64,000 nucleotides of DNA from Photobacterium angustum (lineage in GTDB: Bacteria > Pseudomonadota > Gammaproteobacteria > Enterobacterales > Vibrionaceae): positions 1,550,001 through 1,614,000 of the forward strand of contig NZ_MSCJ01000003.1 of the NCBI RefSeq assembly GCF_002954615.1, in the 5' to 3' direction. The notes below the pieces were generated by a model that saw only the letters and a program-made list of their open reading frames with translations, did not search any database and had not been told where the DNA came from. How positions within the stretch are numbered: position 1 is the first letter of the stretch; every line of letters begins with the position of its first letter. This document shows, one piece after another, positions 21,734-64,000 of the stretch. The position numbers and the translations under genes are program-made.

Positions 21734-21746
21734 AACGATTCTCTTT

Positions 21747-21779: not shown

Positions 21780-21791
21780 ATTACTTTTTAA

Positions 21792-32971: not shown

Positions 32972-35734
32972 TTAATCATCAATTTTTATACCAAAGGTTA
33001 GTGTTACCGTATCGCCAGGTATAACTGTTCCAACTGTTCCTGTAATTGTGCCTGAACTACCATTCACTATATTATTCACCGTACCAGCAGTAATTGATGG
33101 TACGCCACCAGCAACAATAAATGAGGTATAAGCAGGCGTTATATCTGAAATTGAAACATTTAGTGCATCTTTAATCCCTACATTTTTAGCGATTAATTGA
33201 TAGAGTACGCATCGGCCTGGCTCAACTGAAAGTTGAGTCGTTAAATAAGGGCCATCAGCAACACCGTTACAAGTGGTATCAATCGCTTGAAGTTTTTTCA
33301 CCTCCATATTGGTGTTAGATACTCTTGTTGAATCAATGATTTCAATCACACCACAAGGGCTTGTTAGGGTTAATGTAGTAAGGTTTGTAACACCTTCCTG
33401 CGCATTTGCAGGCACAAATACTTTCACTAAGAGCAGTTTTGTAGATTGCCCTGCAATACTTGTAATAGATGTAATAGCAACATCTGCGTTGGTTAAATCA
33501 CCAGAATTATCGGTATCTTCATAAATGACAGAAGTAAACCCAGCGATACTGTTTACAACTCCAATGGTTATAGGCCCAACGGCATCATTACTGTTATTTG
33601 TTAAGGTATGAACATACACTTTTGATCCACCAACATGTGTCACACCAGCCAGATTATTTGATGAGCCCACACATAAACCACTGTTATCTACAGTAACGGC
33701 ATCATGTTTTGTATCTGTTGCCCCTGTGGTATCGGAAGTAACTTTAAAGTAGATAGATTGTGTTGTACTACCTGCAGAAGCAGGGACGGTGACATCTGCG
33801 TAGACAAGTACAGCTGCATCTGGGGCTAAAACAGGGATACCAGAGATAACATTGTCAGTTGCGTCTTTGAACACAACAGTCCAATCTGCAGGTAAATCCC
33901 CTGCATTAAAATCATTATCACTGTATTCAAGTTTATAACCATCCGCGGCTGCTGATGTATTGGTAACGTATAAGGTAAAACGTGTTGTCTTACCAGGCTC
34001 GACACTATTTGTGGTAACCGCCGAGGCTTCTGCACCAGCACCAAAACCACAGTTGTCATCAGCAGCATCACAGCTATCTTCTGTTGTGGTTGCTGTTTCA
34101 GCGCGGAAGTTATTCGTTAAATCAACCGTGCTAAGTTCGATAGCACTTAACTGATCGATAACCGTATTCGATTTCGAAATGTCATTCGATGAGGTTGCTC
34201 GTTTAACGACTTCAAATGGCCCACCCGTTGCATTTGGCGGTAACGTTGCCACTAGCACCACTTTATAGCCACAGTTACCGTTTACATCTGTTACTTGATA
34301 AATACGACAGGTTTGTCCTGACGCTGGGATCCTACCAGTATCAGGATTACTATCGTTATCTGTATCAACTAACGGTGTAACGCCATCACTTTTATAAAGG
34401 AAGAAGCTAGTGCCTGCTGGGAAGGTAGAGGTTTCATAAGTAATGTTAAATGTATCTTCCGCATTACTTGTGTTCCAAATATAGTTGGTAAAGTAAACAC
34501 GCTCACCTTGTTTCGCTGATGGTACATTCACAGTTTCATGATTGGTATCATCATTACCATCACAGTTACTATCTGTACCTGGTGTACAACCACCGTTATT
34601 TGCTATCACACTATATTCAGCATTGATTCTGAACGGCACAGTGTTGGTATCAGTAGATTCCAGTTCGCTATTATCAACTTGCCCACTGTTATCTTCATCG
34701 AAACCATAAACACCAAAGTTATAAACTGTACCCGCTGGTGCGCCATTATCAATCATCACTTCAAATGAAATAGTTGCTGATTCGTTTGAAGCTAGACCAT
34801 CCATTGTAAATTCAACAATATCGCGGGTTGGACAACTAATTGGGTTATTAATACAAGTCGTGAAACTCAAATCTGATGTCCCATCAGAGCCACTACCACC
34901 AGCGGTATTATTTGATGGTGATATCTGCGTACCCGAGACACTCCAATTTACACCACCGTTAAAGCGCATTCCTTCAGGCAATTCATCTTTTAAGATAATG
35001 CCATTGGTATTGGCAGGATTCATATCCGTGATACCAATATTGGTATACGTGAAAGTAACAGTATAAGGCCCGCTTGGTGCAGCGCCATTATCAGCACTGA
35101 TTGCTTTTGTAATATCAATAATCGGTAAATCAGTGACAGTTACTGTATCTGTATTAGTTTCATTACCAACCATACCGTTAGCAACGGGTACACCGTTCAC
35201 ATTCACTTGCTGACTGGTTGCGGTAATGGTTAATGAATCAGACTGGTTAAGTGCAGCCGCTGCATCAATATCAGTCACAATTACAAAGGAGTAACTTTCG
35301 CCCGGAGCCAATGGTCCAATAATATCTGAGTTAGGATCTATCGCTGCAGCTCCAGCATCGGCCACGCCATCATTTGGCGAAACATCAGGATAAATCGATG
35401 CACCAGAAATAACCGTTCCAGGTGGAACAATATCTAAATCATAAGTATCAGTAACATTACCTGTGTTAGTTAGCACATGAGTAAAGGTTACCTGACCACC
35501 TGCCGCACCTAGTTTAGACTGATCAAACGTCAACGTCATTGCAGCTACAGGTTGTACAACAGTTTCAACTAAATTTGACGTTGTACTACGATCGATACCA
35601 GCACTGTCTCGATACGTCGCACCTGCTTGGTTTTTTATCACTGTTCCTGATTCAGTTAATGCAACTGCATAAAAACTCATCAATAACGAAACAGGCATCA
35701 ATACCTTGATGATAAACCTGTAGAAGACATTCAT
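32972..35734 (-). CDS. Large DUF11-domain secreted protein (920 residues)
   Basis: Signal peptide (VLMPVSLLMSFYAVA). Just after it is the short motif shared with the two other large operon proteins (SGTVIKNQAGATYRDSAG ... TSN). The rest is a chain of Ig-like DUF11-type beta-sandwiches (PF01345), e.g. LTNTGNVTDTYDLDIVPPG, IDITKAISADNG, and Ca-binding-like DNDSNPDTG; Cys occur in pairs. The protein ends on the last strand of a DUF11 domain (PGDTVTLTFGIKIDD). Strong GGAGG ribosome binding site 8 nt before ATG; 18 bp from the OmpA gene. It is a paralogue of the 1105-residue protein: both carry ATGGPFE and a TC-G-AD block before the last domain. Surface-exposed or fibre-forming role is inferred. 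Confidence 0.88.
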   Translation of the reverse strand: MNVFYRFIIKVLMPVSLLMSFYAVALTESGTVIKNQAGATYRDSAGIDRSTTSNLVETVVQPVAAMTLTFDQSKLGAAGGQVTFTHVLTNTGNVTDTYDLDIVPPGTVISGASIYPDVSPNDGVADAGAAAIDPNSDIIGPLAPGESYSFVIVTDIDAAAALNQSDSLTITATSQQVNVNGVPVANGMVGNETNTDTVTVTDLPIIDITKAISADNGAAPSGPYTVTFTYTNIGITDMNPANTNGIILKDELPEGMRFNGGVNWSVSGTQISPSNNTAGGSGSDGTSDLSFTTCINNPISCPTRDIVEFTMDGLASNESATISFEVMIDNGAPAGTVYNFGVYGFDEDNSGQVDNSELESTDTNTVPFRINAEYSVIANNGGCTPGTDSNCDGNDDTNHETVNVPSAKQGERVYFTNYIWNTSNAEDTFNITYETSTFPAGTSFFLYKSDGVTPLVDTDNDSNPDTGRIPASGQTCRIYQVTDVNGNCGYKVVLVATLPPNATGGPFEVVKRATSSNDISKSNTVIDQLSAIELSTVDLTNNFRAETATTTEDSCDAADDNCGFGAGAEASAVTTNSVEPGKTTRFTLYVTNTSAAADGYKLEYSDNDFNAGDLPADWTVVFKDATDNVISGIPVLAPDAAVLVYADVTVPASAGSTTQSIYFKVTSDTTGATDTKHDAVTVDNSGLCVGSSNNLAGVTHVGGSKVYVHTLTNNSNDAVGPITIGVVNSIAGFTSVIYEDTDNSGDLTNADVAITSITSIAGQSTKLLLVKVFVPANAQEGVTNLTTLTLTSPCGVIEIIDSTRVSNTNMEVKKLQAIDTTCNGVADGPYLTTQLSVEPGRCVLYQLIAKNVGIKDALNVSISDITPAYTSFIVAGGVPSITAGTVNNIVNGSSGTITGTVGTVIPGDTVTLTFGIKIDD

Positions 35735-35752
35735 ATGACGCTCCTCCGCCGA

Positions 35753-36295
35753 TTATAAGCTATTTACCGGATTCATAATGTTTGACTCCAGTGTTTGCTT
35801 TGAATTATCAAAGAACATTGTCACTGGCTCATGATTCGCATCGAGTAAAATAAGTTGGGTACGGCGATTTGCTCGGTTTTCTTTCTCACTGTTTGTTTTA
35901 ACGAACAGCTCTCTTTCACCCGTACCAATCAGAGCCATCCTTGATGGAGAAATACCCTGACTCTGCAAATAGTTTCCAACTACTTCAGCTCGGCGAATAG
36001 AAAGTGCATCGTTATATTCATGTGAGCCAACTGGATCCGTAGAACCAACTACAGCAACATTAAAAGATGGATTCTGTTGCAATACTTTTACTGCATTCGC
36101 TAGACGGCTCATTTCAGCTGATGTTAAATCTGATTTATCAAATTCAAAGTTAACAACACTTGGCCAAGCGTCTACCACAACTTTTGGTGCCGCTTTTTGA
36201 CACGCTAAAGGGCCGTAATCTGCATATATTGCTTTATCACTGACACACCCACTTAGATAGGTACAAACAAGCAATAAAAATAATCTTACTTTCAT
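35753..36295 (-). CDS. OmpA-family peptidoglycan-binding lipoprotein
   Basis: 180 residues. Lipobox YLSGC (Cys17). The OmpA C-terminal domain (PF00691) covers about residues 45-155: VVNFEFDKSDLTSAEM, GSTDPVGSHEYNDALSIRRAEVVGNYLQSQGI, IGTGERE, NRANRRTQLIL; the Asp and Arg that hold diaminopimelate are present. No N-terminal barrel, so it resembles Pal: anchored by lipid and bound to peptidoglycan. Fourth gene of the DUF11 operon, 13 bp after the giant barrel protein; it probably anchors or stabilises it. Confidence 0.92.
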   Translation of the reverse strand: MKVRLFLLLVCTYLSGCVSDKAIYADYGPLACQKAAPKVVVDAWPSVVNFEFDKSDLTSAEMSRLANAVKVLQQNPSFNVAVVGSTDPVGSHEYNDALSIRRAEVVGNYLQSQGISPSRMALIGTGERELFVKTNSEKENRANRRTQLILLDANHEPVTMFFDNSKQTLESNIMNPVNSL

Positions 36296-36308
36296 TAGTT
36301 AGTTACCT

Positions 36309-39300
36309 CTATTCACTCAACCAGCCAAACAAGCCTTCATCAAGTTTGAACATCATGTTGAAATAAAAACCTTGCAGGTTATAACCTTGTGGGTCGAGAT
36401 CGCTGTCTTTGAACCCAATACCGTTATAGCCAATACCCGCGCGTAAATTTTTCATTACTAGATAGTTGATACCTAAGCCATATGAATAACGGCGACTACT
36501 TAATCCATCGGTACCGAGTACACCTGCGTGTAAATCAAGATCCCAACGACGATTGAGGTAGTAAATCACGCGTCCATCAATAATGGTTGATACTGAATCG
36601 TAGCTATAATCGTATTCGTTATAGTCTTCCCACTTAACCCCTAAGCGGCCCGATAGTAACCAATTTGATGCTGGCTGATAGTTATGGTGTGTTGATAGAA
36701 TATGAGCGGTACGTTTGACATCATTGCGGTCAATCTTCCACTCATAAACACCTAGCATGTTATAGACGTTTGTTAAACGTGGACGGTATGAAATACCTAA
36801 GCTTAAATGTTGGTTCCAAGTGTTAATCGCTGCATCATTATCAACATAGCGGAACTCTTCACGAACCAAACCACTCCAATCTTGGGTCAAACGCGTTACC
36901 CATGCCCCTAGTAGACCATAGTAATCTTCGGTATCACCATGACGATATTCGATACGTCCTGTGGTTTTATAATTTGGGTTACGGATATCAGCGATACCTA
37001 ATGAAACAGCCACGCCTGATGTACCTTCACCTTTAATGACTTCGATATATTCAGCTGATGGGTCAATGCTGATCCCTGGCACCAGTTCAAACTTGCCACG
37101 GTAACCATTCGCCACTTCCAGAATACGGCCGTCTGATGCACCTCGTTGACGGAACTCACTGAAAGTACTACCACCATGCTGCCAATCTACATCAATACCT
37201 GCGGTTAATAAGCTGGTAGTACCGCTACCTAAGTTACTAATACCGCCTAGTGAATCAATATATTCATAGTTAGCATAAAGGTTCGCTTGTTTATGTATAT
37301 TCCAATCCGCTTTGATATTGAAACGCTGCTGTGCGTTGCTATTGAAGCTACGCTCATACTCTGTATCGAAACGACCAGCTCGATTAAAGAGGTTAAAGCT
37401 GCGACCTAAACCGAAGATTGCTGTAGTGAATTGTTCGGTTTCACCCGTGCTGGTTTCATTTTTGATGTAACGAGAACCTAAACGAGTCGTCCATGCACTG
37501 CCAAACAGTTTAGTATCTAACGTAGCGCCAGCTGACTGTTGTTTCTCGCTCGTTTCTAGAGATTCAGAGTGGGACGCTTCAACATTCAAGTTAGTTAAAC
37601 CCATTAACTTCTGACGATGACGTAAGCGAACTTCTTGTCGTGCTGGCGTCACACCACCAGTTATGTTGGTAAACCCTTTCTCTGCATATGCATATTCTAA
37701 TTCGGTTTGACTTGAATCAGTCCAATCACGCTTCAAGCGAAGTTTTACTGCTGTACCGCGTTCAAGTTTTTGACCATTAGTCGTAGCATTAGAAGTGATA
37801 GTATTGGCACTTTCACTACCTTCATGGCTCATTGTTGCCACTGAAGCAGTTAATTGTGTTTGGCTATCAATATTGTAGTTAGCCCAAAGACTCCCTAGCT
37901 TATAGCCCTCTAACTCATGTGTATTTTGCTCGTATGATAAACCCATAGCGAGCGATGGTGTAAAGAGGTAAGAGAGACGACCACCAGCGATAGTATATTT
38001 ATCACCATCACCTTCTAAGTCATACGATATGCGTACTTTTATTGGGTCAAGATTTTCATCGATACTTGGGATCACTCGGTTGAACATAATTTGTCCAGTG
38101 AAGTAATCGATAGTGTAATCAATGTAGCGAATTAAGTTTTGTTCGGCTAATACTAAGCCAGGATTATCACGGCTATAAGTCACTAACGTAATGGTATCGC
38201 TGTGGCGGATAATACGACCGTCACCTATGTCGTAAAACATCGCTGTACCGTTACCATTAATTTCAACGACTTTATGTAAATCTTCAGGTCGTGCGGCATA
38301 AGCTTGCGCAATAAAACGACCATCGTTGTACATACCGTTAAAACCGTTCAGCACTTGGCTTGTGATACCTAAGTCAGCCACATCCGCACCATCTGATGTG
38401 CTGTAATCACCCCACATCGCAAAGTGACGTTCTCTTTCTAACTTAGCGAACCATTTACTGGTACTGCGTGCATCATAACCACGGATACTTGCATCTCCTG
38501 GTAATGGATAGTAACTATCAGGGGCGATTTCACGTAGATATTCTTCGTCATCCTTGTCGCTGTCATAGCTTAATGTTAAGTGCATGCCTCCTTTAACCTG
38601 ACCTTTCATAAAGATGGCTGCACGTTCATCATCACTATAACTATCATCTTCATAGCCTTCAGCTTGGCGAGATGGCTCTTCACCACTGATTCGACCATAG
38701 CGTCCAGTATATTCAAGTAAGCCAGAAACAAAGAGTGGGCGAGCTGCCGCTACTTGGTATACACGAGCGGTGTCAGCGATATCATTTAATGACGCAGTGA
38801 TATCCATTGCACCCGTTGTATTCGAACTACGTAGGTAAACTGTTTTCTCTCCGTTTACGACACGTACTTGATGACCTGTTTCATCAGGGTGAATATCAGG
38901 CTCTAACCAATTATTCTCTTTATTTGAATTCAAGGTTACGAAGTAAGTACCACGGGCTATCTTGTTATTCTTATCAAATAGCTTGATATTGAGTGGAATA
39001 ACAGAGCGTCCACCATCAGCATGTAATACCTTGCCATCAGTGCTTAAGCTAATTCGATCAGCTGAATCAGGATGAGAGAACACTTTACTTAATAATGTAC
39101 GCTCATTTCCGAAATCATCTGTCGCTTTCACTTCAACAAGGTTATCGCCAGGCTCAAGATTAACCCCATACCAACCGAGTATTTGTGCCTTTTCTTTCTC
39201 ATTACGAATTTGCTCACCTAACTGCGTATCGCTCACTTTACTACCATTCACATATAGCGATGGTTTAACAGATGCAGGGACAACGATAATGAAACGTCCG

Positions 39301-42300: not shown

Positions 42301-42917
42301 GCATCAGTTTTCTTAATTAAATCAGGATCGCCACTTGATTGTGCATTAAGAGATAATAAAAAGTTTTCATTTTCTAATACTGAACTTGGTGTTGTCACAA
42401 CATAACTAAGTTGTAAAAATTCTCCAGGAGCTAAAGTTGGTGTAATATAGCTACCATCTTCATTTTTCTCTAACTCTCTTTCACCAGGATTAAATAAGCC
42501 ATCTCCATTTTCATCAATATATATTTTTATTTCAGTTCCTTCTGTATATATATCACCACTATCGCCTGGTAAGTTATTTACATTTAATATATAAGAATCA
42601 TCTTCATTCCCTGTATTTTCAATAGTGACTGGAATACTTGCAGTACCGCCAATGGGTACATAGCGGGTAAATTCAGGATCAGAATCACCGTTATCTGTCG
42701 GTGAAATAGTATAACTATAAACACTGGCAACGGTTACATATGAATAATTAGATAAGACCTTAACATCTTCTCCCAATTCAGTATTAAAATATGTCATCTC
42801 AGCTTGATTCAATATTTTAGTACCGGCACTTGTTATAGAAAATGCATATGAACTCATACATAATAAAATGAATATAATAAAGCTTTTCATTTTAGACATA
42901 AAATTTAAGAGTGCCAT
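36309..42917 (-). CDS. Giant outer-membrane protein: DUF11/SdrD-type domains plus C-terminal beta-barrel (2202 residues)
   Basis: Signal peptide ends near residue 27. Then the shared motif (AGTKILNQAEMTYFN). Residues about 620-720 are a SpaA/Cna-B-like domain (FKYDKNGDLIPGIEGAVVKFYQ); about 757-902 a DUF11 domain (LTLEKTADKETAEIGEFVKYTLTLKNN); about 912-970 an SdrD-B domain (GKVYVDGHCNKD ... DENGQYSMFGVKPGTHVLKVD). From about 1390 an outer-membrane part begins (LFVSGLLEYTGRYG, YYPLPGDASIRGYDARST, AMWGDYSTSDG), with IDYTIDYFTGQIMF near residue 1600. The last ~560 residues alternate as amphipathic strands (SYEQNTHELEGYKLG, LGINYLVMKNLRAGIGYN). This looks like a barrel of many strands with a very large periplasmic or surface part. 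GGAG 7 nt before ATG. I infer a platform or translocon for the DUF11 proteins; a passive adhesin is the alternative. Confidence 0.85.
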   Translation of the reverse strand: MALLNFMSKMKSFIIFILLCMSSYAFSITSAGTKILNQAEMTYFNTELGEDVKVLSNYSYVTVASVYSYTISPTDNGDSDPEFTRYVPIGGTASIPVTIENTGNEDDSYILNVNNLPGDSGDIYTEGTEIKIYIDENGDGLFNPGERELEKNEDGSYITPTLAPGEFLQLSYVVTTPSSVLENENFLLSLNAQSSGDPDLIKKTDAEVIVVDGPALNLTVGSDPVCQSPVKSGEDIEYKVVYNSVGTERPQAATEPYVFSTQDASGTLVEKRHAGVLITVKKPANVTIQQDRVVDGQPKRDYSPIIIASPLAKFNGGIVLVGLNTGEITNGDDRLLKWIDYSVWDGNGIVEKMGFLVTPSNMEPGTSGHFTYYSKVNNINNSPEFKVFSQASVNLLAGDPLIVKSNIQCNTLSGIGLQSGGKLIDFETIDTSAIDFDDKGINYSNEAHFLPTDFYFREGTPGHDPKIDAIHARINLPIANLDSSVIDFIGPKDSRFPVKLRSSFGDEFYWVFAETGPDTGIFRSVMPISAVEPNDQSGPQARDSNYCHEAFPGVWRAGEVSRAEQQSQINDIINFRASGLNGKTFNNCGIESNPNDKLTVEVRDTQNNTVFLQDVATVSPQFTVFDSTHFKYDKNGDLIPGIEGAVVKFYQTVNGKVPDVLGEPIATAVSDENGRVFYPKLPISNEGYFIIVEPPEGYSWPTQYKDPLVFNSYQVSAPSYGANGYTGEENSGLFYISSFNGLNIFDIPLDPSNLDRRLTLEKTADKETAEIGEFVKYTLTLKNNLPESTFYNTRIIDELPYGFKYMKGSARLNDQPLEDPIQTGTYSIEFNLGDVDGSTIAPNNGTYIVTYLLQLTAGAVDSDGINSAQAVANTLASSIISSLDNGQPTSSNIARYQLGITQTGVMSERGIIFGKVYVDGHCNKDIKSSAWPIGGVKIYLETGDYVITDENGQYSMFGVKPGTHVLKVDKQTLPEGVELQAIDTRNAGMGDSRFVDLRRGEFHKADFVAPCPENNPEAVYNELKGRNKDINGDWLFDTTEQFKGLSNRTVERKGNELTSGIVSGPKATTSNNEASSLSPTLHSFKGYALELRSGSERSMKEFYNLLPSGVQDEAYVYLAGDDASLRFGFADKEDLLVPLQQKLQTSNFNTKVVETSYNNIPYAARLNIDNKIEEDIPLPEKDAAKITRAEAKKGTWYWPKGDYSYHGRFIIVVPASVKPSLYVNGSKVSDTQLGEQIRNEKEKAQILGWYGVNLEPGDNLVEVKATDDFGNERTLLSKVFSHPDSADRISLSTDGKVLHADGGRSVIPLNIKLFDKNNKIARGTYFVTLNSNKENNWLEPDIHPDETGHQVRVVNGEKTVYLRSSNTTGAMDITASLNDIADTARVYQVAAARPLFVSGLLEYTGRYGRISGEEPSRQAEGYEDDSYSDDERAAIFMKGQVKGGMHLTLSYDSDKDDEEYLREIAPDSYYPLPGDASIRGYDARSTSKWFAKLERERHFAMWGDYSTSDGADVADLGITSQVLNGFNGMYNDGRFIAQAYAARPEDLHKVVEINGNGTAMFYDIGDGRIIRHSDTITLVTYSRDNPGLVLAEQNLIRYIDYTIDYFTGQIMFNRVIPSIDENLDPIKVRISYDLEGDGDKYTIAGGRLSYLFTPSLAMGLSYEQNTHELEGYKLGSLWANYNIDSQTQLTASVATMSHEGSESANTITSNATTNGQKLERGTAVKLRLKRDWTDSSQTELEYAYAEKGFTNITGGVTPARQEVRLRHRQKLMGLTNLNVEASHSESLETSEKQQSAGATLDTKLFGSAWTTRLGSRYIKNETSTGETEQFTTAIFGLGRSFNLFNRAGRFDTEYERSFNSNAQQRFNIKADWNIHKQANLYANYEYIDSLGGISNLGSGTTSLLTAGIDVDWQHGGSTFSEFRQRGASDGRILEVANGYRGKFELVPGISIDPSAEYIEVIKGEGTSGVAVSLGIADIRNPNYKTTGRIEYRHGDTEDYYGLLGAWVTRLTQDWSGLVREEFRYVDNDAAINTWNQHLSLGISYRPRLTNVYNMLGVYEWKIDRNDVKRTAHILSTHHNYQPASNWLLSGRLGVKWEDYNEYDYSYDSVSTIIDGRVIYYLNRRWDLDLHAGVLGTDGLSSRRYSYGLGINYLVMKNLRAGIGYNGIGFKDSDLDPQGYNLQGFYFNMMFKLDEGLFGWLSE

Positions 42918-42989
42918 AAGCGCTCTCCACTGGCTAATAATTCAAAGAAAGATAGGCTTATTAAACATATTTAAATAAATACGTTTAAT

Positions 42990-43013
42990 AAGCCTCCCAA
43001 TTAAGGGAGGCTT
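42990..43013 (-). other. Intra-operon hairpin between the 1105- and 2202-residue genes
   Basis: Perfect 9-bp stem AAGCCTCCC / GGGAGGCTT with a 6-nt loop in the 109-bp gap. On the minus strand it is followed by ATTAAACG, not a T tract, so it is more likely an RNA-stability or partial attenuation element than a full terminator. Confidence 0.6.
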
Positions 43014-43026
43014 GTATTTTTATTGA

Positions 43027-46000
43027 TTAGTCAACACGAACAGTAAATATACCTACAGCTTTATCACCAGGAGCTAATGTAGCAACGTCAAAGTCAACGT
43101 TAGTACCATTAACATTCGCAGTGATATCAGCACCAGTACCAGCCGCTGGATAACATAAGTTACCTAAGTCAGCTTCAATAGCAGTGTCGATTGGGTATGT
43201 TGGATCCGTTGGTGTAACAGCCACTGCAACATCAGTCGTTAGACGACAGTCATTCGGTGCTTGTGCAGTTTCTAGCGTTGTATTCGCTGGAACAGCATCC
43301 GTAATTACTGTGTTAAGTGCTGGTGTTTGGCCTTGGTTCCAAGCAACAAGCATCCAAATTACACATTGTTGAGGCTCAATACCTTCGAAGTACTGAGTGA
43401 AACCAGTATCGGCAGTACCGTCACAGGTTGCATCAGGAGCCGCATATTTGTATAGGCGAACCTGACCACGAACAATTTCAGTGGTATCTAGAGCGCTAGT
43501 TGTTAGTGAAGAATCTGAATCAGACTCAGCCGTAATGGTTGTAATGTTCACACTACCTGGTGCAGCATTAGCAGGGCCAAATACTGTCACTTCCATTGGA
43601 ATAGTTTCACCAGGTTCTAAGTTAAACATTGGTGTACCATCAGGTTTACAAGTAAGCTCAATGGTTTGATCTACACCGTCAGTACCTTCAACTGTGATTG
43701 TCGGTGAAATTGCAACACCTGCAGGACACAATGCTGTGATAGCTGTATCTGGAGTACCGTTACCATCAGTGTCAATCTCAATTTTGTGCGTGAAGCCATT
43801 ATCATCAGTCGCAGCTAATGTAATATCAGACTCTGTAGTATTACCAGTATTTGTTAATACATGGTCGTAAAGTACAGAACCACCTGGCTCAACTTGGTTT
43901 TGACCTGTTGGAGGGGTAATTGCGATAGATTTCGCAGATAGAACATCAATTGCCTCAACCTTACGGTCTTCAGCGCCTGAGTTTGCAGAGGTTACTTTAA
44001 TAGAGATAATATAATCATTATCACCATCAACATTGGCATCAATCGTACCAGGCTGTTGACTATCAGCTAATGCTTTAAGCGCATCAGATGGTAGTGTAAT
44101 TTCAGCCGTTACGAACTGTACTGCGCCACCAGGAATTTGTGCTGTAGCAAAGATTTGTGCACCTGTACCTGGAATATCTACAGTACCATCGGCGTTAGTA
44201 TCAATACCTGCATCAAGGAATTTCACAGTCCAGCCATCAGGCAATGCTGTGTACCAAGAATTAGATCCTGCGTCATAACTACCTTCAGCAGCAAGCGTGA
44301 ATGAATCTTGACCACCGCCTTTGTTAGCAATATAAATCGGTGCCGTTACTGTCGTAGCTAGAGGTTGGTCATTGAATACTGTTGCAATATCGTCAGCAGG
44401 CGTACCGTCAGCATCTAACACACCATCAGTCACATCGACTAAATCAATATCCGTTGCTGGTGCCATGTCACCATTAGCATCAATAAACGGATTATTTGAC
44501 ACATCAACCGTTGGAGGCGTTACACTTGTTAAACGCTCAATTTTGCTATCCGTCTTAGTACTATCATTAACCGATGTTGCTGTTGTAGTCGCCTCGAATG
44601 GACCACCAGTCGCACTTGCAGGCAAGCTAACGACAACACGGATCAATGTTTGGTTACACGCAACAGTAATACCATCAACAACTGTTGGAGCTACACCTGC
44701 AGCCACACAAGTCGATGCTGGAATTGCACCTGTATCTGCAATACTGTCACTACTCGTGTCAACTAAAGGACCAGTACCTGTATCGTTAAAGAACTTGAAG
44801 GTTGTTCCAGTTGGATATGGGTTAGTTGGGCCATTTACAGTCACAAGGTTAAAGGTATCAGTACTATTACCTGTGTTAGTAATAAGGTTATAGAAGAACA
44901 CATCACTACCAGCTGATGCATTGTCTACAGTTTGTACATTATCTTCTGTACCATCATCATCACCACCTTCACCACTCGTTGATGGGCCATTACTTCCTGT
45001 ATCAGTAATAGAGCCACCATAGGTATTTTCTGAAGTGATTGGGGTTGGATTAGTAATGATTGGACCAGGTTTGGTTGGGCTACCACACTCATTATCATCG
45101 ACATAATCGGTGTCACCAGAGCCACCGTTTAAGTTTGCACAGATAAAGGCTTGGTTATTAATGTCTGTACCGCCTTCCACCATGTTTGGCGAATACCAAA
45201 CAGAGAAGTTCATCGATACCGTACCGCCAGAAGGTAGTGAGTTATCAATCGCAAACACACCAGGAACAACTGCATCAGCAGTATCACCATCATGGTTAAG
45301 ATCTAAACCACCAGCAATACCACCTTCACCGCTATTTTCAAGTGAACCATCTTGGTCTAAATCAACGCTAACACCAGATGAATTTAGTAATGAGTTTTCA
45401 TCTGTTAAGTTAGCAGCACTTGTTACAGATGTATCACCATCAGCAACAACTAAACCTGGGCTAGAAAGTGATGAAGTAATTAATGTCGTGCCATCAGGAA
45501 TACCATCAAACATGTGAACATCTGTTGCGGAAGTATTACCTGTATTCGTTGCAACAATGCTGTATTGAATAATATTTACAGCTAAATCTGTTGAAGGGTC
45601 ACCATCGACATCAATACCTGTGGATGACTCTGTACCACCTTTGATTTCGTTTGCTGTCTTATTCACATTAATAACAGCATCGTTAGTAATAGTGATTAAG
45701 TCACCATTCGTATCATCAGCACTATCATTATTAGCACCAATATCTGAGACCGCATTTGCAACAGGAGCACCTGTACCTTCATGTGCTTGAGCTGTAAATG
45801 TGACACCTAACTTATCACCGACTTGTGCAGAGCTTGGTACTTCAACTGCTAATATGTAGTAATAAGTCTGCCCTGCTGGAATGGTAACAACAGAACCACT
45901 TGGGATTGCTGCTTCACCATTATCCGGTCGACCAGTTTCATTTCCATCCCAGTACATAGTGATACTGTTTGCATCAATATCATCCGTACCACGGGTGTCT

Positions 46001-46344
46001 CCGCTAGGTAAACCTTGAGCATAAGATAATGTAAAGTCTTCTGGACCATTACCATTATTCGTTAGCTCGTGGACAACATATTTAACTTGACCAGCGGCAG
46101 CTGTATCATCAAAGTCATCCTCTAATGTCGCGGCATAAATTTGCGCAACTTTTACTACAGCTTCATTAGAGAAGGCTTGGTAGGTATTCCCCAACGAATC
46201 TTCATAGTCAACTTTAGCTTCATTTTTAATTTCAACGCCGGCTAGAGTTGTAGATGCAAGGGCTTGGCTAGTAAGTGTACCTGCACCTATCGTTATGAGA
46301 CCCGCTGCAACCCATCGACATATAGGTTTTAAATGCGTATTCAT
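43027..46344 (-). CDS. Large DUF11-domain secreted protein (1105 residues)
   Basis: Signal peptide ending near SQALAS. Shared N-terminal motif (LAGVEIKNEAKVDYEDSLG ... FSNEAVVKV). Then a chain of DUF11-type beta-sandwiches with many Asp/Asn-rich Ca-binding-like loops (DVDGDPSTDL, DLDQDGSLENSGEGG, DTDGNGTPDT). Near the C-terminus LYKYAAPDATCDGTADTG leads into the last DUF11 domain, which ends the protein (PGDKAVGIFTVRVD). Very acidic overall. Paralogue of the 920-residue protein. 92 bp after the 161-residue DUF11 gene. Likely a secreted fibre- or stalk-like surface protein stabilised by calcium; function not established. Confidence 0.87.
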   Translation of the reverse strand: MNTHLKPICRWVAAGLITIGAGTLTSQALASTTLAGVEIKNEAKVDYEDSLGNTYQAFSNEAVVKVAQIYAATLEDDFDDTAAAGQVKYVVHELTNNGNGPEDFTLSYAQGLPSGDTRGTDDIDANSITMYWDGNETGRPDNGEAAIPSGSVVTIPAGQTYYYILAVEVPSSAQVGDKLGVTFTAQAHEGTGAPVANAVSDIGANNDSADDTNGDLITITNDAVINVNKTANEIKGGTESSTGIDVDGDPSTDLAVNIIQYSIVATNTGNTSATDVHMFDGIPDGTTLITSSLSSPGLVVADGDTSVTSAANLTDENSLLNSSGVSVDLDQDGSLENSGEGGIAGGLDLNHDGDTADAVVPGVFAIDNSLPSGGTVSMNFSVWYSPNMVEGGTDINNQAFICANLNGGSGDTDYVDDNECGSPTKPGPIITNPTPITSENTYGGSITDTGSNGPSTSGEGGDDDGTEDNVQTVDNASAGSDVFFYNLITNTGNSTDTFNLVTVNGPTNPYPTGTTFKFFNDTGTGPLVDTSSDSIADTGAIPASTCVAAGVAPTVVDGITVACNQTLIRVVVSLPASATGGPFEATTTATSVNDSTKTDSKIERLTSVTPPTVDVSNNPFIDANGDMAPATDIDLVDVTDGVLDADGTPADDIATVFNDQPLATTVTAPIYIANKGGGQDSFTLAAEGSYDAGSNSWYTALPDGWTVKFLDAGIDTNADGTVDIPGTGAQIFATAQIPGGAVQFVTAEITLPSDALKALADSQQPGTIDANVDGDNDYIISIKVTSANSGAEDRKVEAIDVLSAKSIAITPPTGQNQVEPGGSVLYDHVLTNTGNTTESDITLAATDDNGFTHKIEIDTDGNGTPDTAITALCPAGVAISPTITVEGTDGVDQTIELTCKPDGTPMFNLEPGETIPMEVTVFGPANAAPGSVNITTITAESDSDSSLTTSALDTTEIVRGQVRLYKYAAPDATCDGTADTGFTQYFEGIEPQQCVIWMLVAWNQGQTPALNTVITDAVPANTTLETAQAPNDCRLTTDVAVAVTPTDPTYPIDTAIEADLGNLCYPAAGTGADITANVNGTNVDFDVATLAPGDKAVGIFTVRVD

Positions 46345-46436
46345 AAAGTGGTTACCTTTTAAGGTCGTTAATTTAATTTACGATAATGTAGCTAAACCCT
46401 TGCAATAAGCATGGGGTAGTGCCATTTACTTATCGG

Positions 46437-46922
46437 TTATTTAACTTCGATACGATAAGTAAAAATTTGTTTTTCCTTTGAGTTAATCGGAACATTTGGA
46501 GTCCAGCGAATAGCTGTGTATTTTTCAGGTGGGATAATAACTTCAACTTCTTTACCATCCTTCATAACCATTCTTTTAACTGGTTCCGGTTCGAATGTTT
46601 TGCCTCCATCAATACTTACAACAAAATCTGAATTAATTTTTGTGTTATTAGTACCGGGAACAAAAAATGTATTTTGAGGAATAGGACCAGTAATAACTAA
46701 TCCCTTAAGCTCTTTATCTGAGTTATTAGTATAAGTGAGCTTATATTCAATCTTATCTTTAGGATAAACTTCAACAGCTGGTTTTAACTCTTCATCTCCA
46801 TCTTTATTTAAAGTAACAAGATATGCGTCCATTTGGCTTGATAATGGTTCAACTTTCTTTTCTGCAAATACAGAGAAAGACATAACCACTGCAGCAAATA
46901 CGATTAGTAATAGCTTTTTCAC
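46437..46922 (-). CDS. Single-domain DUF11 protein (161 residues), first gene of operon
   Basis: Signal peptide KKLLLIVFAAVVMSFSVFA, then one DUF11-type domain: KIEYKLTYTNNSDKELKGLVITGPIPQNTFFVPG, ending the protein in KQIFTYRIEVK. It is thus a free copy of the terminal domain carried by the large proteins of this locus, and could act as a cap, initiator or subunit. Start set at GTG 46922 with GAGG 6 nt upstream; the in-frame ATG at 46934 overlaps that ribosome binding site. A sigma-54-type promoter lies 40 bp upstream. Confidence 0.87.
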   Translation of the reverse strand: MKKLLLIVFAAVVMSFSVFAEKKVEPLSSQMDAYLVTLNKDGDEELKPAVEVYPKDKIEYKLTYTNNSDKELKGLVITGPIPQNTFFVPGTNNTKINSDFVVSIDGGKTFEPEPVKRMVMKDGKEVEVIIPPEKYTAIRWTPNVPINSKEKQIFTYRIEVK

Positions 46923-46961
46923 AATACACCTCATTATTTAATTAGTCTGCGATAGTATTAA

Positions 46962-46977
46962 TGCTAATTACGTGCCA
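46962..46977 (-). promoter_or_regulatory. Sigma-54 (-24/-12) promoter of the DUF11 operon
   Basis: On the minus strand TGGCACGTAATTAGCA fits TGGCACR-N4-TTGCW with one mismatch, and the GG and GC are exactly 10 nt apart. The predicted start near 46951 gives a leader of about 29 nt to the GTG at 46922, containing only the ribosome binding site. Confidence 0.75.
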
Positions 46978-54739: not shown

Positions 54740-54761
54740 TTTGCACACCTAAATGAATCAA

Positions 54762-57700: not shown

Positions 57701-59288
57701 CATCATCGAAATTGTTATTATCATCCGCACGAGCAAGGATATCTTGTAAATTACCGTTATCTGCATCCCATTGGTTACCTAAACGCAGATCGATAAAGCC
57801 GTTATCATCCGTATCTACCTGCACATGGTGCGCCCCATCATTATCATAAATGGTAGTGTAATCATTGATACCTGTCCCTGCTGTGGTATCAACCGCATCA
57901 CCAAAATCTGAACCTAATACATCTGGTGCATCAGTGAAACAACCTTTTTGTAGGTTGAAGCTATCCCCAGTACTCCCTGTAAATCCGAAACGAACCATGT
58001 TGTTGCCAATATCATTACGGATGTTTCGGGTAAATTGTCCTACCATCACACCATCCATGTAATAAGTAAATTGGTTGGTAGTCGGATCCCAATAGAACTG
58101 TGCGATGTGATAACGTCCATCCTCCAATTCACCACCCGCGACAGATGTTGCAGGGATCAAAGTATTGGCTGGATCTGGGGTATATATGTCCCCGTTTAGA
58201 TATACACCTGTATGATCAATATATTGTCCACCAAGCGCATCGTCTGTAGCTCCAATAAAGGTGTTATCAAAAGTATCAAACTCAAACACAATGGACGGTT
58301 GTACACGCTGTCCACCGAAGTTATCGCCCACCCCTAATCCACCACCGAAATCACCTACCGCATTCAAGTCACGAGGATCAGCAGATAAAACAAAGGTCAT
58401 ACCGTCAGCCCCCGCTTCGCCTGCCGGCCCCCCGGTATTGGCACTGCGATCACCGAGATATACGGCGAGCTCTGCATACATAGGCTGATTTAAATCGATG
58501 TATTGCAAACTCCACAGGTACCCTGCTTGGTTCTGTGTATTGGTCGTTACAACATACTCACCATTGGCATCAAGGTAAGCATCCCCTCCTTCATACACGA
58601 CAGGAGATTCACAAACATTCGGTTGAACAACATTGGTGATATTGGGTGTCACGGTATCTGTGTCATCTTCACCGTTATTAAACCCATTGTTTGGCGTGGA
58701 GTCGGTATCATTGATCGAGGTTTCAATGATTTCACCACTAATAGGAGGAGCTGTGGAAGATTGAGGAGCAAGGCGGATCACTGCATAATCGTTAAATCCG
58801 AGACCAATTGCCCCAAGATCCAATTCCCCCGTAATAGGGTCATAAATCGTTGTTGGCGTTACTCCATCTCCTTCATACGCCCTAACAAAGCTGTAGCCGG
58901 CAGGAATAGGTAAGGTGACTTTAGTGTTTAACGCAATGGTCGTTCCCTTATTCTCAACTTTTACCACCACATTAAATGGAATACCTAACGTAACATTCAC
59001 TCCCGGCTCTAATTCTAAATCTAATTCTAAGTCACCGGGTGGTTTCAGTGATATTTGATGATCTTCAACTTCACCGTCACCAGCACTGCCCATTGGACTG
59101 CTACAGGCTTCACCACTCGAACAAACACGTAAACGGGCAAGGGTATCTTGGATTTGAACATCAGCAGGGACTGTAAAGGTTAAGGTGCTATTACCTGATG
59201 CATTAACGGCAACGGTCGCCCTCTCATCATTATCAAAGGTGCCGCTAAGGTCGAAATCAATCCAACCATAAAGGTTATCATTTCCTGA
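54762..59288 (-). repeat. Tandem 4.5-kb repeat, copy 2
   Basis: Partner of 47573-52099. Similarity ends sharply at the stop codons on one side and near the start of a GEVED domain on the other (59289 and 52100). Confidence 0.95.
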
Positions 59289-61622
59289 CGATACTACAGG
59301 TACTGACATGGTCACCGTACTACCACCAGATAATATTGTTGATATCGATGGCTGAATAAATCCATCTTCATCATCCGGAGTTAAGCCGTTAATATCATCT
59401 CCATTTGCAGTCGCGGTTGGCTGACCGTCATTTTCATTATCAGGGTTATTAGAGCCTAAATACGGTAAACCGATGTCGGTTTGGTGGCGAGGACCATTAT
59501 TAGTTAAATCTGTGCCGTATGTATTTGGTGCATCACCAAAATCTGTTGGTACGGGAGCATAGCGACACCGTGCGCCATCGTTACCACTTGCTGGCTGACC
59601 ATTTGTAAGAAAAGTTGCATTAACTAACGTCGCAGCTGGCGCTGATAAGTTCGATAAATCAAATCGCCATAATGCACCGTCATTATTATTAGAGGCATAC
59701 ATAAAGCCCATATTGTCAAAATATAAAGCGCCAACCGCTCCCGAACCCGACATATTTGTTGTGCCCAAATTTGTCACAGATACAGCATACGTATTTGTTT
59801 GACGATTGATGGTTAAATCATAACGATAAAGTGATTTATCGTTGGTAATACCCCATGCTATTGACGTATCAAGCGGATGAATCGCGAGATCACCAACAAA
59901 GGTATTCGTAGACGCAGAACGACCTAGATATTGACCATAAGTTTCAGAATTAGGATTCACATCCACAAAATAAAGACGTCGACCATTCGCTCCTCCGCCC
60001 GACAACAATACTAGTATGTCGTCATCAGTGACGTCTCCTGCAGGAAAGCTGATTCCGTTGAGTTCTGGCACATTAAGCCTTAAGACGGGTTGATGTTGAC
60101 TATCAAAAGCAACGACATCTGAATTGGTTGAACCGCTATTCGCGTAAACCCCCCATAATAAGTTTTGGGCAACACTATAGCCAATACCGTTGTATGTCGG
60201 AGAATGTGTAGAACCTAGCTGTGTTTCCGACGCTGTTACCAAATTCACTTGATACAATGATCTGGGTGTATTTTTAGTCAAATACGCATTGGTATCACAA
60301 GTAGGAAATGTATTATCAATCACAATGTCACCAAAGTTTACATCAGTAACAACGCCAGCAGTGACGGTAACAATATTCGCAGTTGAGGAGATATGTGAAG
60401 CAGGATCGCCTATTGTACCGCCTCCGCTAGTGCCGGTGACGGGATCAACCGTCGATTGCGTTGGTGGACAAGTCGGAGAAGTGATGTTAGTTTCGTTTAT
60501 GGCTTCGTAAACTTTATAGGTACCAGTCGTTGGAAGCGATATTGAATATGCACCCGTTGTCGGATCTGCATTAGCCGCATAGCACTGTCCTGTTGCTGAA
60601 TTATAAGCCACAACAGGCACAGTTATTCCCAGACCAGCCTCACTTCCATCTTTGACACCATTGGCCGATGTACCACCTCCACTACCATCATCATTAAAAA
60701 CAAAGCCAGAAATAGAAGGAGGCGGATCAAATGTATAAGTACAAGAAACATCGTCACCATTATTTAATGTAAACGTCGTCGCACAACTGAGGTTATTTAA
60801 CGTATAGCCAGTTGGACCATTCCAACTTAAGGTATACGAGCTAGGCGTCATCGCTCTGGTGTCACCTGAACTAAAGTTGGCAGCTATATTTCCACTATCT
60901 GTCGCTATTAATGTAAAGTCACCAGGAACCGCACTGCCTCCTGGATTCACAACAGCGTTCAAGGTTAGGCTACCTTGCACAAAGGAATAGGCCTTAAAGG
61001 ACACTAAATCTAACGCTGCGCCGGAACGGCCATCAAAACCAGCTAATGCTTGACCTGCAGGAGCAACAACACGATTATAATATGATCCCCCGTATGCATG
61101 ATTAGGTCCTATTTGCCCAGTTGATGGCGATGCTGGCGCTGCTGCAATTTCTAATCGATTTGTTCCACTATTAAAAGAAACAGGCGCACAATAAAGACGA
61201 AACCACCCCATTACAGGCCACGTTGTGGTTTGAGCATCAACACCAACAACAGCTTGATTTGCTGGACAATTTCCTGAATATTGCGTCCCTGATGTTGGCC
61301 CACCCCAAGGCGTGTTGCCAGAGTATGTTAACGTGGCAACACCACCAGATACATTAACTGTTGAGCAGCGACCTCTTAAGGCTGTTCCATCAAGAGTCCC
61401 ACCCGAATTTGAGTTATAGAACTCAAACCCTGTCATTAATTGACCGCTTGGGCAGTTTTTAACAGAAAATGGAGATCCCCCCATACCACCGATGGAAAGT
61501 AAGTCGCTTTGATATACTAAACCCACACCTTCAGCAGAAAAAACTTTCTGACTAAATAAGAGTGTCGAAGTTAAGAGAAGTAATCTAAATATTATTTTTA
61601 TTGTTAGGATTTTAATAAGCAT
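54762..61622 (-). CDS. Giant surface protein B, paralogue of A (2286 residues)
   Basis: Signal peptide [29 protein letters not shown]. The N-terminus differs from A: two or three repeats of a VMO-I/jacalin-like type ([52 protein letters not shown]; about 30-215), then a short beta domain (CTYTFDP). SdrD-B (305-435), propeller-like (440-690), GEVED (695-855); from there to the end it is nearly identical to A: DUF11, L-type lectin, GEVED, propeller, GEVED, SdrD-B, DUF11 ending [10 protein letters not shown]. It has one GEVED domain fewer than A. Start at ATG 61622 with GGAGGA about 10 nt upstream; the in-frame ATG at 61640 overlaps that ribosome binding site. A sigma-54-like site lies upstream. 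Differing N-terminal adhesive parts on a conserved stalk suggest different ligands. Confidence 0.88.
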
Positions 61623-61685
61623 TCGAATTAATTCCTCCATCAAAAAATAATTAACTCTATTTTTTGAAATCTATAAAAGGAAATA

Positions 61686-61701
61686 AGCAAAGTTTATACC
61701 A
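61686..61701 (-). promoter_or_regulatory. Sigma-54-like promoter of the giant-gene operon
   Basis: On the minus strand TGGTATAAACTTTGCT: the -12 box TTGCT is perfect, the -24 box is TGGTAT (consensus TGGCAC), and GG and GC are exactly 10 nt apart. The expected start near 61675 gives a leader of about 53 nt to the ATG at 61622. Confidence 0.6.
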
Positions 61702-61826
61702 TTTCAAATTCATCAATTTTCTTATATATACGTAAAGTAGAATACTATTTTGCTAATCATTATTTAATTTCATTGCAATTATGAATTTTAATATTATTAA
61801 AAGTTTAATTTCCGTTTTAATAAATA

Positions 61827-64000
61827 TTAATCCACCTTAACTTGATAACTCACATAACCACTCTCACCAGGAGCTAGATTATTATTGAAATGCCATTCAA
61901 CTGCACCTTGATAACCCGCATTATTAGTACCATTAGGCGTTAAAATGGAGCTGCAAACTAACGTTCCTGGTAGCGATACCGCAGGAGGCGTACATAAGAT
62001 TGTCGTCGATAATGATGTGAAATCTGGGATCAAATCAGAAATAATTAAATCATCGACATCACCTAATCCATTATTTTTAAAATAGATTCTATATTCTAAA
62101 ATATCGTTAGGTTTGGCCTTATTACTTCTTGATTCACCCGTAGATGTAGTGATATTTAGCACTGTTTTTTCTATTTCTAAATCACTAGAACCACTGTAAG
62201 TCACTTTAATTGTATCTGTATCGGAAACCTGACGAACAATGGGTGAATTACTAAACGTTACATTCGCAATAAGTTCGTAGCGACTAATAGCATTGAGTGG
62301 CGTATTGGATGGCATCATAGATTTAACAACAAGGCATATTTCAGGTGCAGAATCTGCATTCATATTGAATGGCGCAACCACAGCGATATCTGCTGGCATA
62401 TCTAACACACCGTTACAGCTAATATCTTGATAAATAATATGACTCCAGTTGTACCCTGATGGCGATGCTTGTTCATTGGCTAAACTAAACGTTACCGTAC
62501 CTGACGTATCGATAATAAATTTATGGCTCAGGAAGACTGGTAATCCAACTAAGGCATCGACAGAATTATCAGGTTCTAAAACCGGCTCTTGGACTTTACC
62601 AAAGTCTAAATTATCCAAAATATCACCAGCAGTAGCGTTGATCAGCATTTCACCGTCAAGTAATGAATTATTAGTAACTTTCCCCACTAAATCTAATGCA
62701 GGATCTGTAACATCACTTTCTGATATATCAATCCAAGCAGCTTGCGAAACCACGATCAACTTGACGTTTTTTTCTGATAAATCAACAGGGATCACAAGAG
62801 TAAAACGACCATCTCCTGAGGTAATAGTTCGGTTGATCTCTTGTCCGGGGTTAAAACCCGTTATTGCTGTATCATCATAAACCGCTTTAACAATGAATCC
62901 ATGTAAGCCTTGTTCATCACCAGCCTGAATACCATTATGTGCAGTGGTAGCGCCTTTTCCGTTGTCTTCAAATACTTTCCCATTTAAAGTGATGTCCATA
63001 TCAACAGGTACATTAGCACTAAACTCCGATGTATCTTGCAGTGAACCAAGCCCGCCGGTTGTTATACGATAAGCAATAACTGTAATTTCATCACCATTTA
63101 CGAGTCCTGGTACTGCTGTAACGTCATTGAGGTTAGAACCAACAACACCTGTAATACTGTATAGATACGTTTCACCTTCCCCAGCAGCACGACTATCACC
63201 ACCAGTATCACCTGTACCTGCATTGACTTTATAAACTTCAAAGACAAATTCACCCGTACCACAAACACTGCCAGTCACGGTTAAATTGGTACCGTCATAA
63301 ACTGCACTATCAATTTCAGGCCGTGCTAAATTGTTATTTGCCCCAGCTCCGGTATTGTTATTACATATATCATTATTAAGAGATACGCCATCACCAGTGG
63401 CACCATTTTGTAAGTCAATAGAATTGGAATCATTGTTGCTGAAGGTATTTTTAGTAATTAAGTAGCCTCTAACATTGGTATTTCCATCAATGGAAACACC
63501 CGAACCACCATTATTGTGTAAGACATTACATTCAATGGTTGAATGGCGACCACTTCGATAATGAATGGCATCACCATCAGCATTTTGAATATCATTACTC
63601 GTGATAGTTTGGTTTAAATCAACGGCTGAAGTAAGGCTCTGGTTAATACCATCCCCCGTTGCTTCACGTAATATATTACCTTGAATATTTAGATAACTTG
63701 GTGCGCCTCGAGCAATCACAACATTATGATAAGGTGTCGCTGCAGTAGAGGTTGTTCCTAATAATTGGTTATGAATCACTTGCCAATTAATCACATTAGT
63801 TTGTGATGTTAAATTATTAAATGAAATATTATTATGTGCTGTCTTTATTGCGTTATAACGGATCACACCACTGTCACCAGTTAATGCACTATTTCCGGCA
63901 TTAGAAATAGCAATACCAGCACAACCTAATGATGTTCCGCAACCTTGGTCACCAATCACATCATCATTACCAGCAGGATCAATACCAATGAGGTTATTTT
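61827..64000 (-). CDS. Giant surface protein C, N-terminus outside window (beta-helix + SdrD-B + DUF11)
   Basis: The last ~723 residues are visible; the frame is open to base 64000 (NLIGIDPAGNDDVIGD), so the start lies beyond. Residues at the N-side form a right-handed beta-helix with Asn-rich turns (VIRYNAIKTAHNNISFNNL, LNIQGNILREATGDGIN, IECNVLHNNGGSGVSI). Then GEF-type beta domain (VTGSVCGTGEFVFEVYKV), SdrD-B (NGKVFEDNGKGATTAHNGIQAGDEQGLHGF), a beta-sandwich (LSHKFIIDTSGTVTFSL) and a terminal DUF11 ending GYVSYQVKVD. The last ~400 residues are homologous domain for domain to the ends of giants A and B at perhaps 45-50% identity, so all three share one C-terminal module. 204 bp separate it from giant B. 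Confidence 0.85.
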   Translation of the reverse strand, partial: NNLIGIDPAGNDDVIGDQGCGTSLGCAGIAISNAGNSALTGDSGVIRYNAIKTAHNNISFNNLTSQTNVINWQVIHNQLLGTTSTAATPYHNVVIARGAPSYLNIQGNILREATGDGINQSLTSAVDLNQTITSNDIQNADGDAIHYRSGRHSTIECNVLHNNGGSGVSIDGNTNVRGYLITKNTFSNNDSNSIDLQNGATGDGVSLNNDICNNNTGAGANNNLARPEIDSAVYDGTNLTVTGSVCGTGEFVFEVYKVNAGTGDTGGDSRAAGEGETYLYSITGVVGSNLNDVTAVPGLVNGDEITVIAYRITTGGLGSLQDTSEFSANVPVDMDITLNGKVFEDNGKGATTAHNGIQAGDEQGLHGFIVKAVYDDTAITGFNPGQEINRTITSGDGRFTLVIPVDLSEKNVKLIVVSQAAWIDISESDVTDPALDLVGKVTNNSLLDGEMLINATAGDILDNLDFGKVQEPVLEPDNSVDALVGLPVFLSHKFIIDTSGTVTFSLANEQASPSGYNWSHIIYQDISCNGVLDMPADIAVVAPFNMNADSAPEICLVVKSMMPSNTPLNAISRYELIANVTFSNSPIVRQVSDTDTIKVTYSGSSDLEIEKTVLNITTSTGESRSNKAKPNDILEYRIYFKNNGLGDVDDLIISDLIPDFTSLSTTILCTPPAVSLPGTLVCSSILTPNGTNNAGYQGAVEWHFNNNLAPGESGYVSYQVKVD

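Follow-up and report, generated by a model that had tools for sequence, protein, structure and literature searches.

DUF11 is a known intramolecular isopeptide domain (CLIPPER), and the crystal structure of one such domain shows a bond between Lys-715 and Asn-806, Asp-748 being the presumed catalyst, and one more strand after the Asn (PMC12617251). Here, we describe a locus at positions 32972–64000 of a 64,000-nucleotide stretch of the 4.9-Mb Photobacterium angustum genome (contig NZ_MSCJ01000003.1, positions 1550001–1614000; the whole stretch is referred to as the window), which encodes giant putative surface proteins with terminal DUF11 domains, a large predicted outer-membrane barrel protein, and an OmpA lipoprotein. 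One close described relative is the Acinetobacter silvestris fibrillar adhesin B9T28_05395, which has DUF11 stalks, GEVED-like and adhesive domains, an OmpA-like anchor, and the same Lys/Asp/Asn chemistry; there, the bond forms within one domain of one chain, and the accessible sections of that report name neither a barrel nor complementary halves on separate proteins (PMC12617251). Chaperone-usher pili (FimD/FimC), described in PMC9715654, differ from the locus, where the accepting domain sits at the end of multidomain giants and the coupling would likely be covalent. The Usher, PapC, and PapD families are also absent from the eight locus proteins (Pfam, E ≤ 0.01), and the same library detects them in a fimbrial cluster elsewhere in the window. 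Archaeal threads built from Saci_0406 likewise show donor-strand complementation and a proposed inter-subunit isopeptide bond, yet they are single-pilin filaments with no outer membrane, and their bond joins an Asn side chain to the N-terminal amino group of subunit n+2 rather than Lys to Asn with the help of Asp (PMC9715654).

The original prediction for this window, which was made from its sequence alone, knew of no described system with this set of parts, and we likewise found no description in 5.39 million open papers, with subscription papers mostly outside the search. Type V secretion is similar in that a C-terminal barrel ends the single-chain homologues described below and that barrel and passengers are separate in the locus. 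It differs in the probable OmpA anchor and in the proposed coupling of passengers by a split domain, and no known type V barrel or passenger family (autotransporter, TpsB, or intimin type) matches the barrel protein in Pfam at E ≤ 0.01. The SpyTag/SpyCatcher pair is also a split isopeptide domain with a reactive side chain on the last strand; its split was engineered, whereas the one proposed here would be natural. To our knowledge, split isopeptide systems have so far been known solely as an engineered tool, and a natural one would be a possible source of many tag/catcher pairs. If our reading is true, it would also explain how Gram-negative DUF11 giants with no recognised anchor are held and probably exported, through a cassette that includes none of the type I, type II, or classical type V components, and it would provide a sequence rule, a truncated C-terminal DUF11 versus an N-terminal AGTxIxNxA, that predicts which surface proteins join.

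All eight adjacent minus-strand open reading frames that had been predicted are present (P0001–P0008; 920, 180, 2202, 1105, 165, 2391, 2293, and at least 723 aa), and all coordinates given for the locus are on this strand. Two giants, P0006 (47573–54748) and P0007 (54762–61643), contain four and three GEVED stretches, respectively, one legume-type lectin domain each (Pfam), and a C-terminal acceptor module. A third giant, P0008 (61827–63998), is cut by the window end, has a complete length of 1439 aa when the gene is read past the edge, and combines an acceptor module with a weak beta-helix match below the Pfam cut-off. P0004, which we call N1 (43027–46344), has an N-terminal donor and a C-terminal acceptor, and P0001, which we call N2 (32972–35734), has a signal peptide, a donor segment, an Ig-like chain, and an acceptor module. 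The barrel protein is P0003 (36309–42917), the OmpA-domain protein, a probable peptidoglycan anchor, is P0002 (35753–36295), and P0005 (46437–46934) is a small secreted protein with one incomplete DUF11-type domain. DUF11 exceeded the Pfam cut-off in the barrel protein only and was sub-threshold in the others, while the NCBIfam DUF11 repeat TIGR01451 was above its cut-off in P0003, P0004, and P0008 and below it in P0001 and P0005, in a scan of the locus proteins other than P0006 and P0007. Set beside fibrillar adhesins, which combine an adhesive domain, a repeated stalk, and a surface anchor, the locus proteins have lectin, GEVED, and Ig-like domains and a putative anchor.

We consider it fairly likely that the locus is a cell-surface display system in which adhesins made as separate proteins are joined to a single large barrel in the outer membrane. 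While still in the periplasm, each protein's donor segment would complete the C-terminal DUF11 of the next, and the conserved Lys and Asp would then make an intermolecular Lys-Asn isopeptide bond, covalent in most cases; the bond is proposed by analogy, since DUF11 (CLIPPER) forms it within one chain. The giants, as acceptors only, would be the tips, N1 and N2, with donor and acceptor, would be links, and the barrel protein, as donor only, would be the base, with the small protein as a placeholder that holds donors unlocked. The adhesive N-terminal part of each giant would pass outward through a barrel of ~36–40 strands, and the barrel protein, together with peptidoglycan-bound OmpA, would retain its C-terminus. 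The complete picture, a widespread display machine that builds adhesins of several thousand residues out of individual proteins with naturally split isopeptide domains, threading through a 36–40-strand barrel, and a dead half-domain as a periplasmic placeholder, seems to us about evenly balanced between right and wrong.

To collect relatives, 84,980 species genomes were scanned with a pattern, which returned 116, and the best 80 of these 116 gave 74 loci. Barrel loci counted below also number 74 (the window plus 73 of the 74 fetched), and only loci with enough flanking sequence enter the neighbor counts. Proteins were assigned automatically to the small, N1, N2, and giant classes, and some labels are wrong: the "small" protein of L068 is an N1 fragment, a few "N2" are downstream giants, and the "giants" of L088 and L093 resemble shadow frames.

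The giants had been described as anchorless, and the module at their C-termini had not been noticed. We found that N1, N2, and the giants share a homologous two-domain module of ~260 aa at the C-terminus (hhalign E-values of 2e-83 for N1 with N2, 1e-49 for N2 with a giant, and 5e-39 for N1 with a giant), so they are not simply anchorless. Nor had the original prediction noted that a matching segment stands at the N-terminus of N1, N2, and the barrel protein, or the split-DUF11 logic that the two suggest. In the window, the acceptor module lies at 32975–33724 in N2 (Lys814 at 33293–33295, Asp864 at 33143–33145), where it ends at the expected start of the Asn strand, and at 43030–43815 in N1 (Lys966 at 43447–43449, Asp1016 at 43297–43299). 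It occupies 47576–48361 in P0006 (Lys2282, Asp2326), 54765–55550 in P0007 (Lys2184, Asp2228), and 61830–62615 in P0008 (Lys611, Asp655, numbered in the part within the window). In 30 aligned rows, the final strand of the module reads F/Y-x-V/I-x-V/I/L, and usually one or two residues are left after it.

To place this end, we used a model of complete DUF11 with 105 positions, built from 14 internal repeats of DUF11 proteins from other genomes and a paralogue from the same genome; positions 91–105 are the Asn-bearing strand. Terminal domains were selected by a C-terminal pattern (59/63 N1, 57/57 N2, 51/55 giants). In the 125 hits that reach the C-terminus (32/59 N1, 48/57 N2, 45/51 giants, with the remaining hits ending earlier), the terminal DUF11 stops at a median model position of 90, with a maximum of 91. 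The internal DUF11 of the barrel proteins extends to at least position 101 in 64 of 70. Lys and Asp occur together in 161 of the 167 terminal domains (56/59 N1, 57/57 N2, 48/51 giants), and both are invariant in a 40-row N2 alignment (A6). The Asn is invariant in A6 as well, which was set aside as evidence because the rows were chosen by a pattern that demands Asn. An earlier C-terminal regular expression matched 19/60 small proteins, 56/63 N1, 56/57 N2, 43/55 giants, and 34/669 control frames; it proved overly stringent for small proteins and was given up. No solved structural relatives were identified for the C-terminal module or for the barrel protein's DUF11, and the canonical repeat gave just weak, unrelated matches.

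The counterpart of this truncated end is a segment with the consensus AGTxIxNxAxxxY...SNxV at the start of N1, N2, and most barrel proteins, within ~20 residues of a signal-peptidase-type site (loose pattern). In the window, the N1 donor lies at 46135–46254 (Asn41 at 46222–46224), the N2 donor at 35543–35659 (GTVIKNQA...SNLV, Asn35 at 35630–35632), and the barrel-protein donor at 42708–42842 (Asn37 at 42807–42809). A regular expression for the Asn-containing donor matched 61/61 N1, 53/58 N2, and 55/69 barrel proteins (59/69 with Trp permitted at the last position), as well as 0/45 giants and 0/58 small proteins, with none in P0006 or P0007; it was written after the motif had been seen, so these counts are descriptive. 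We also scored the first 100 aa of each protein with a matrix of the last DUF11 strand derived from internal repeats only. Median best scores were 13.5 bits for N1, 9.7 for N2, and 10.3 for barrel proteins, compared to 3.9 for giants, 5.0 for small proteins, and 4.8 for OmpA proteins. The 95% level of shuffled sequences was exceeded by 60/61 N1, 3/45 giants, 2/58 small proteins, and 2/58 OmpA proteins. A distant locus, L121, appears to be split in the same way, with a 375-aa protein that has both donor and acceptor ends, a donor on the barrel protein, and an acceptor on the giant, and the adaptors of L116 and L117 have both donor and acceptor.

Taken together, the sequence patterns make split-domain coupling of N1, N2, the giants, and the barrel protein probable, and several observations weigh against it. 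The 14 repeats behind both the DUF11 model and the last-strand matrix were picked by a pattern demanding Asn. The matrix exceeded the shuffled level in just 28/58 N2 and 37/69 barrel proteins. For N2 of the window itself, a site other than the donor segment received the higher score. A looser pattern places the donor Asn in 60/61 N1, 49/55 N2, and 52/63 barrel proteins. When hhalign was used to align the donor to the complete DUF11 of the barrel protein, the match was not significant (probability 0.85%), with the donor alignment poorly registered, and the L116 and L117 barrel proteins showed no donor. The failed hhalign match and the weak Pfam DUF11 hits favor a rival explanation, in which the terminal DUF11 ends at a natural boundary, the N-terminus is an unrelated cap, and the proteins are linked by ordinary contacts or merely belong to one regulon. 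We consider this quite improbable, given that three protein classes stop at model position 90–91 of 105, 14–15 residues short of where internal DUF11s continue, and that N1, N2, and the barrel protein, unlike the giants and small proteins, carry an N-terminal segment resembling the missing strand. The donor pattern was absent from eight proteins of single-chain, fused, or paralogue type whose N-termini are visible (L108_02, L108_03, L113_03, L114_11, L118_03, L118_04, L119_06, and L120_07).

With split-domain coupling as the preferred reading, the question is whether the bond is covalent. The complete internal DUF11 of P0003 (40203–40664) has Lys762, Asp797, and Asn866, all invariant in an 11-row alignment, so that by sequence it holds the Lys, Asp, and Asn of a DUF11/CLIPPER domain in one domain, and by analogy these would be its isopeptide triad. 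In the split domains, a non-covalent alternative is donor-strand complementation as in chaperone-usher pili, with Lys and Asp serving folding. Four barrel proteins have His (L032, L033) or Gly (L062, L076) where the donor Asn would be, which fits this alternative, and a covalent bond therefore cannot be universal. The small protein points the same way, since it has the same truncated end with no Lys/Asp pair. It matches the last domain of the C-terminal module (hhalign 2e-14 against N1), its Lys position is L, V, or I in 50/60 and its Asp position is Gly in 38/60 (Leu39 and Gly83 in P0005), and the two residues occur together in 0/60. Retention of Lys and Asp in nearly all N1, N2, and giant acceptors, set against their never occurring together in the small protein, along with the Asn-containing donor found throughout N1, argues against purely non-covalent coupling, which we regard as unlikely. 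We lean, on these residue patterns, toward an intermolecular Lys-Asn bond. The small protein, we propose from its sequence, could take a donor without locking and act as a non-covalent placeholder or chaperone.

The gene order across loci supports the claim that barrel, OmpA, and DUF11 proteins belong together. The genes share a strand and are usually arranged as small DUF11, N1 (~1000 aa), barrel, OmpA, N2 (~900 aa), with giants alongside, upstream of the cassette in Photobacterium and often downstream elsewhere. N1, an NTD/DUF11 protein, lies directly upstream of the barrel in 63/65 evaluable loci, a small DUF11 gene is found in 56/57, N2 in 57/65, and OmpA in 58/68 (55 as a separate downstream gene and 3 fused). 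The barrel gene was thus not found to be widespread without DUF11 neighbors in the 74 loci. These loci come from Photobacterium (15), Shewanella, Alcanivorax, Halomonas, Granulosicoccus, Thiothrix, Kistimonas, Desulfatibacillum, Verrucomicrobia, Gracilimonas, and others. The complete cassette is gammaproteobacterial, and partial versions are held by Desulfatibacillum, Verrucomicrobia, and Gracilimonas: two Desulfatibacillum, several Verrucomicrobia, and two betaproteobacterial loci have small, N1, and barrel genes with no detected OmpA, and in Gracilimonas OmpA is fused and N2 was not detected. A Granulosicoccus/Granulosicoccaceae subset (L046, L061, L067, L069, L073, L077, and L085) has two extra OmpA-domain genes after N2, of ~350–390 and 600–675 aa.

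Co-occurrence was evaluated in two genome sets. Among 60 genomes (P. angustum and 59 relatives, with at most 6 candidates scored per genome), the full-length barrel was found in 11, and the giants' C-terminal module in exactly those 11. In the 49 genomes with no full-length barrel the module was not found, and matches there were propeller or GEVED parts of shorter proteins. Across 370 gammaproteobacteria (at most 2 candidates scored per genome for the barrel and N2 profiles and 7 for the module), the barrel family was observed in 55 (E ≤ 1e-10), the module in 40 (E ≤ 1e-6), and both in 35 (Fisher p 1.7e-29, relatedness ignored). An N2-profile match was found in 11 of the 370, partial in G133, G155, G245, and G332 and full-length or nearly so in the other seven, and all 11 have the barrel. 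Together with gene order and the natural fusions described below, this agrees with the original proposal that barrel, OmpA, and DUF11 proteins act together, and we hold it very probable that they form one functional display unit. Further elements of that proposal, export of the giants by the barrel and a lectin-bearing adhesive layer, are conjectural. On the opposite side of the balance, OmpA was undetected in 10/68 loci, and at the thresholds used 5/40 genomes with the module have no barrel match and 20/55 barrel genomes have no module match.

The C-terminal barrel that had been read in the 2202-aa protein was also predicted by AlphaFold2 (48 sequences, mean pLDDT 80.9). It comprises residues 1388–2202 of P0003 (36312–38756), with ~36–40 predicted strands and a ~70-residue insert after about eight of them. 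The strand number comes from a single model with a pTM of 0.66 and unchecked closure, which also counts against our reading. A classical autotransporter barrel has 12 strands, so that the predicted P0003 barrel has about three times as many. The nearest named relatives of P0003 are in P. lucens (88%, best segment) and P. andalusiense (83%, over the barrel region), and several relatives have precomputed matches to PF13505 or PF13609, which are generic barrel/porin families. In a structural comparison, the entries listed for the barrel were FimD, porins, and glycosidase Ig domains; since the porin scores there come close to that of FimD, the fold match does not indicate membership of the chaperone-usher class. 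A DYxxDYxxGxI motif led us to look for the type IX translocon SprA, to which we claim no relation, and no SprA chain appeared in the profile search of PDB sequences or in 50 rows of the structural comparison. If our reading is true, the barrel would represent a new outer-membrane family, present in the 55 gammaproteobacterial genomes above and in other phyla.

P0002 has an OmpA domain (PF00691, E 2.7e-20) and the lipobox LSGC, in accordance with the Pal-like lipoprotein that had been predicted. The lipobox pattern is present in 45/58 of its homologues, and a loose pattern near the lipid-attachment Cys in 57/58 (such as CASTEELFAEYD; in the window protein, CVSDKAIYADYG). This motif after the Cys is a possible family signature of cassette OmpA lipoproteins.

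Natural fusions bear on how the barrel sits and what it does. An OmpA domain follows the barrel in the distant relatives L089, L094, and P0052, and precedes it in L058, P0058–P0060, P0062, P0064–P0066, and P0071–P0073, with 266–440 aa from the nearest OmpA domain to the barrel. OmpA domains work in the periplasm on peptidoglycan, and their fusion to either side of the barrel therefore suggests that its two ends lie on the periplasmic side. Some chains carry all parts: an 11,777-aa open frame in G155 (L109–L110, G155:C2) has a long DUF11 array, then OmpA, then the barrel, and further chains with DUF11, OmpA, and barrel have 4125, 3540, 3060, and 2249 aa, of which some are cut by contig ends and some carry just one detected DUF11. 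In G228, DUF11 is joined to the barrel in a 3728-aa chain and the neighboring gene encodes OmpA, and in G256 a DUF11 giant ending in OmpA adjoins a barrel encoded on its own and disrupted into two frames. The P. angustum genome itself has a second, simpler locus (L108, C1:676000–695900, 2812–16627) with a 3020-aa DUF11 protein, a 1179-aa barrel, and a 166-aa OmpA lipoprotein.

In our proposal, the chains with DUF11, OmpA, and barrel would be the same machine in one polypeptide, and the joining of DUF11 and barrel in a single chain suggests that in such homologues the giant exits through its own barrel. For the separate proteins of the window, the direction of transport, the opening of the pore, and the small protein's part as a placeholder are deduced rather than observed, a further point against the full mechanism. 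The barrel could instead be an anchoring platform, with giants exported otherwise (e.g., by type II secretion) and then captured by the barrel/OmpA complex, through split DUF11 or not. Gene order and co-occurrence show association, not transport, which leaves room for a platform. The single-chain homologues that put DUF11 regions and barrel in one polypeptide argue against it, as does the consideration that a chain ending in an outer-membrane barrel is most simply exported by that barrel, as in autotransporters; we think a mere platform rather doubtful. A role for the barrel as a translocon appears to us somewhat favored.

The extent of the locus differs from that predicted. The genes of the 31-kb locus were borne out, and its end at the window edge was not, as giant genes run on to the end of the 1,623,367-base contig, with more over its first ~32 kb. 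To the right of the window lie the remainder of P0008 and another giant that reaches the contig end (L122–L124 are the contig-end loci), and two open frames in the first ~32 kb of the contig, 2152 and 4716 aa long, share the C-terminal module. If the contig is circular, the giant cluster probably runs on past the window for ~41 kb and spans the contig end. Matches at 7–23 kb of the contig were considered as giants unlinked to the locus, a candidate that was dropped because the same cluster probably spans the contig end on that condition.

P0006 and P0007 (47573–61643) share 84% protein identity over 1990 aligned residues, with differing N-terminal parts, and are 91% identical at the DNA level in the last 4.7 kb at their 3' ends; they look like a recent tandem duplication. 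The chaperone-usher fimbrial cluster in the window, at 16538–22355 on the minus strand, encodes a fimbrial protein, a PapD-type chaperone, a PapC-type usher, and a FimH-like mannose-binding adhesin. It sits in a low-GC stretch (0.29–0.33), was probably acquired separately, and is distinct from the display system. Finally, a 547-aa protein at 10223–11866, also on the minus strand, has a delta-endotoxin N-terminal Pfam domain (E 6.7e-16).

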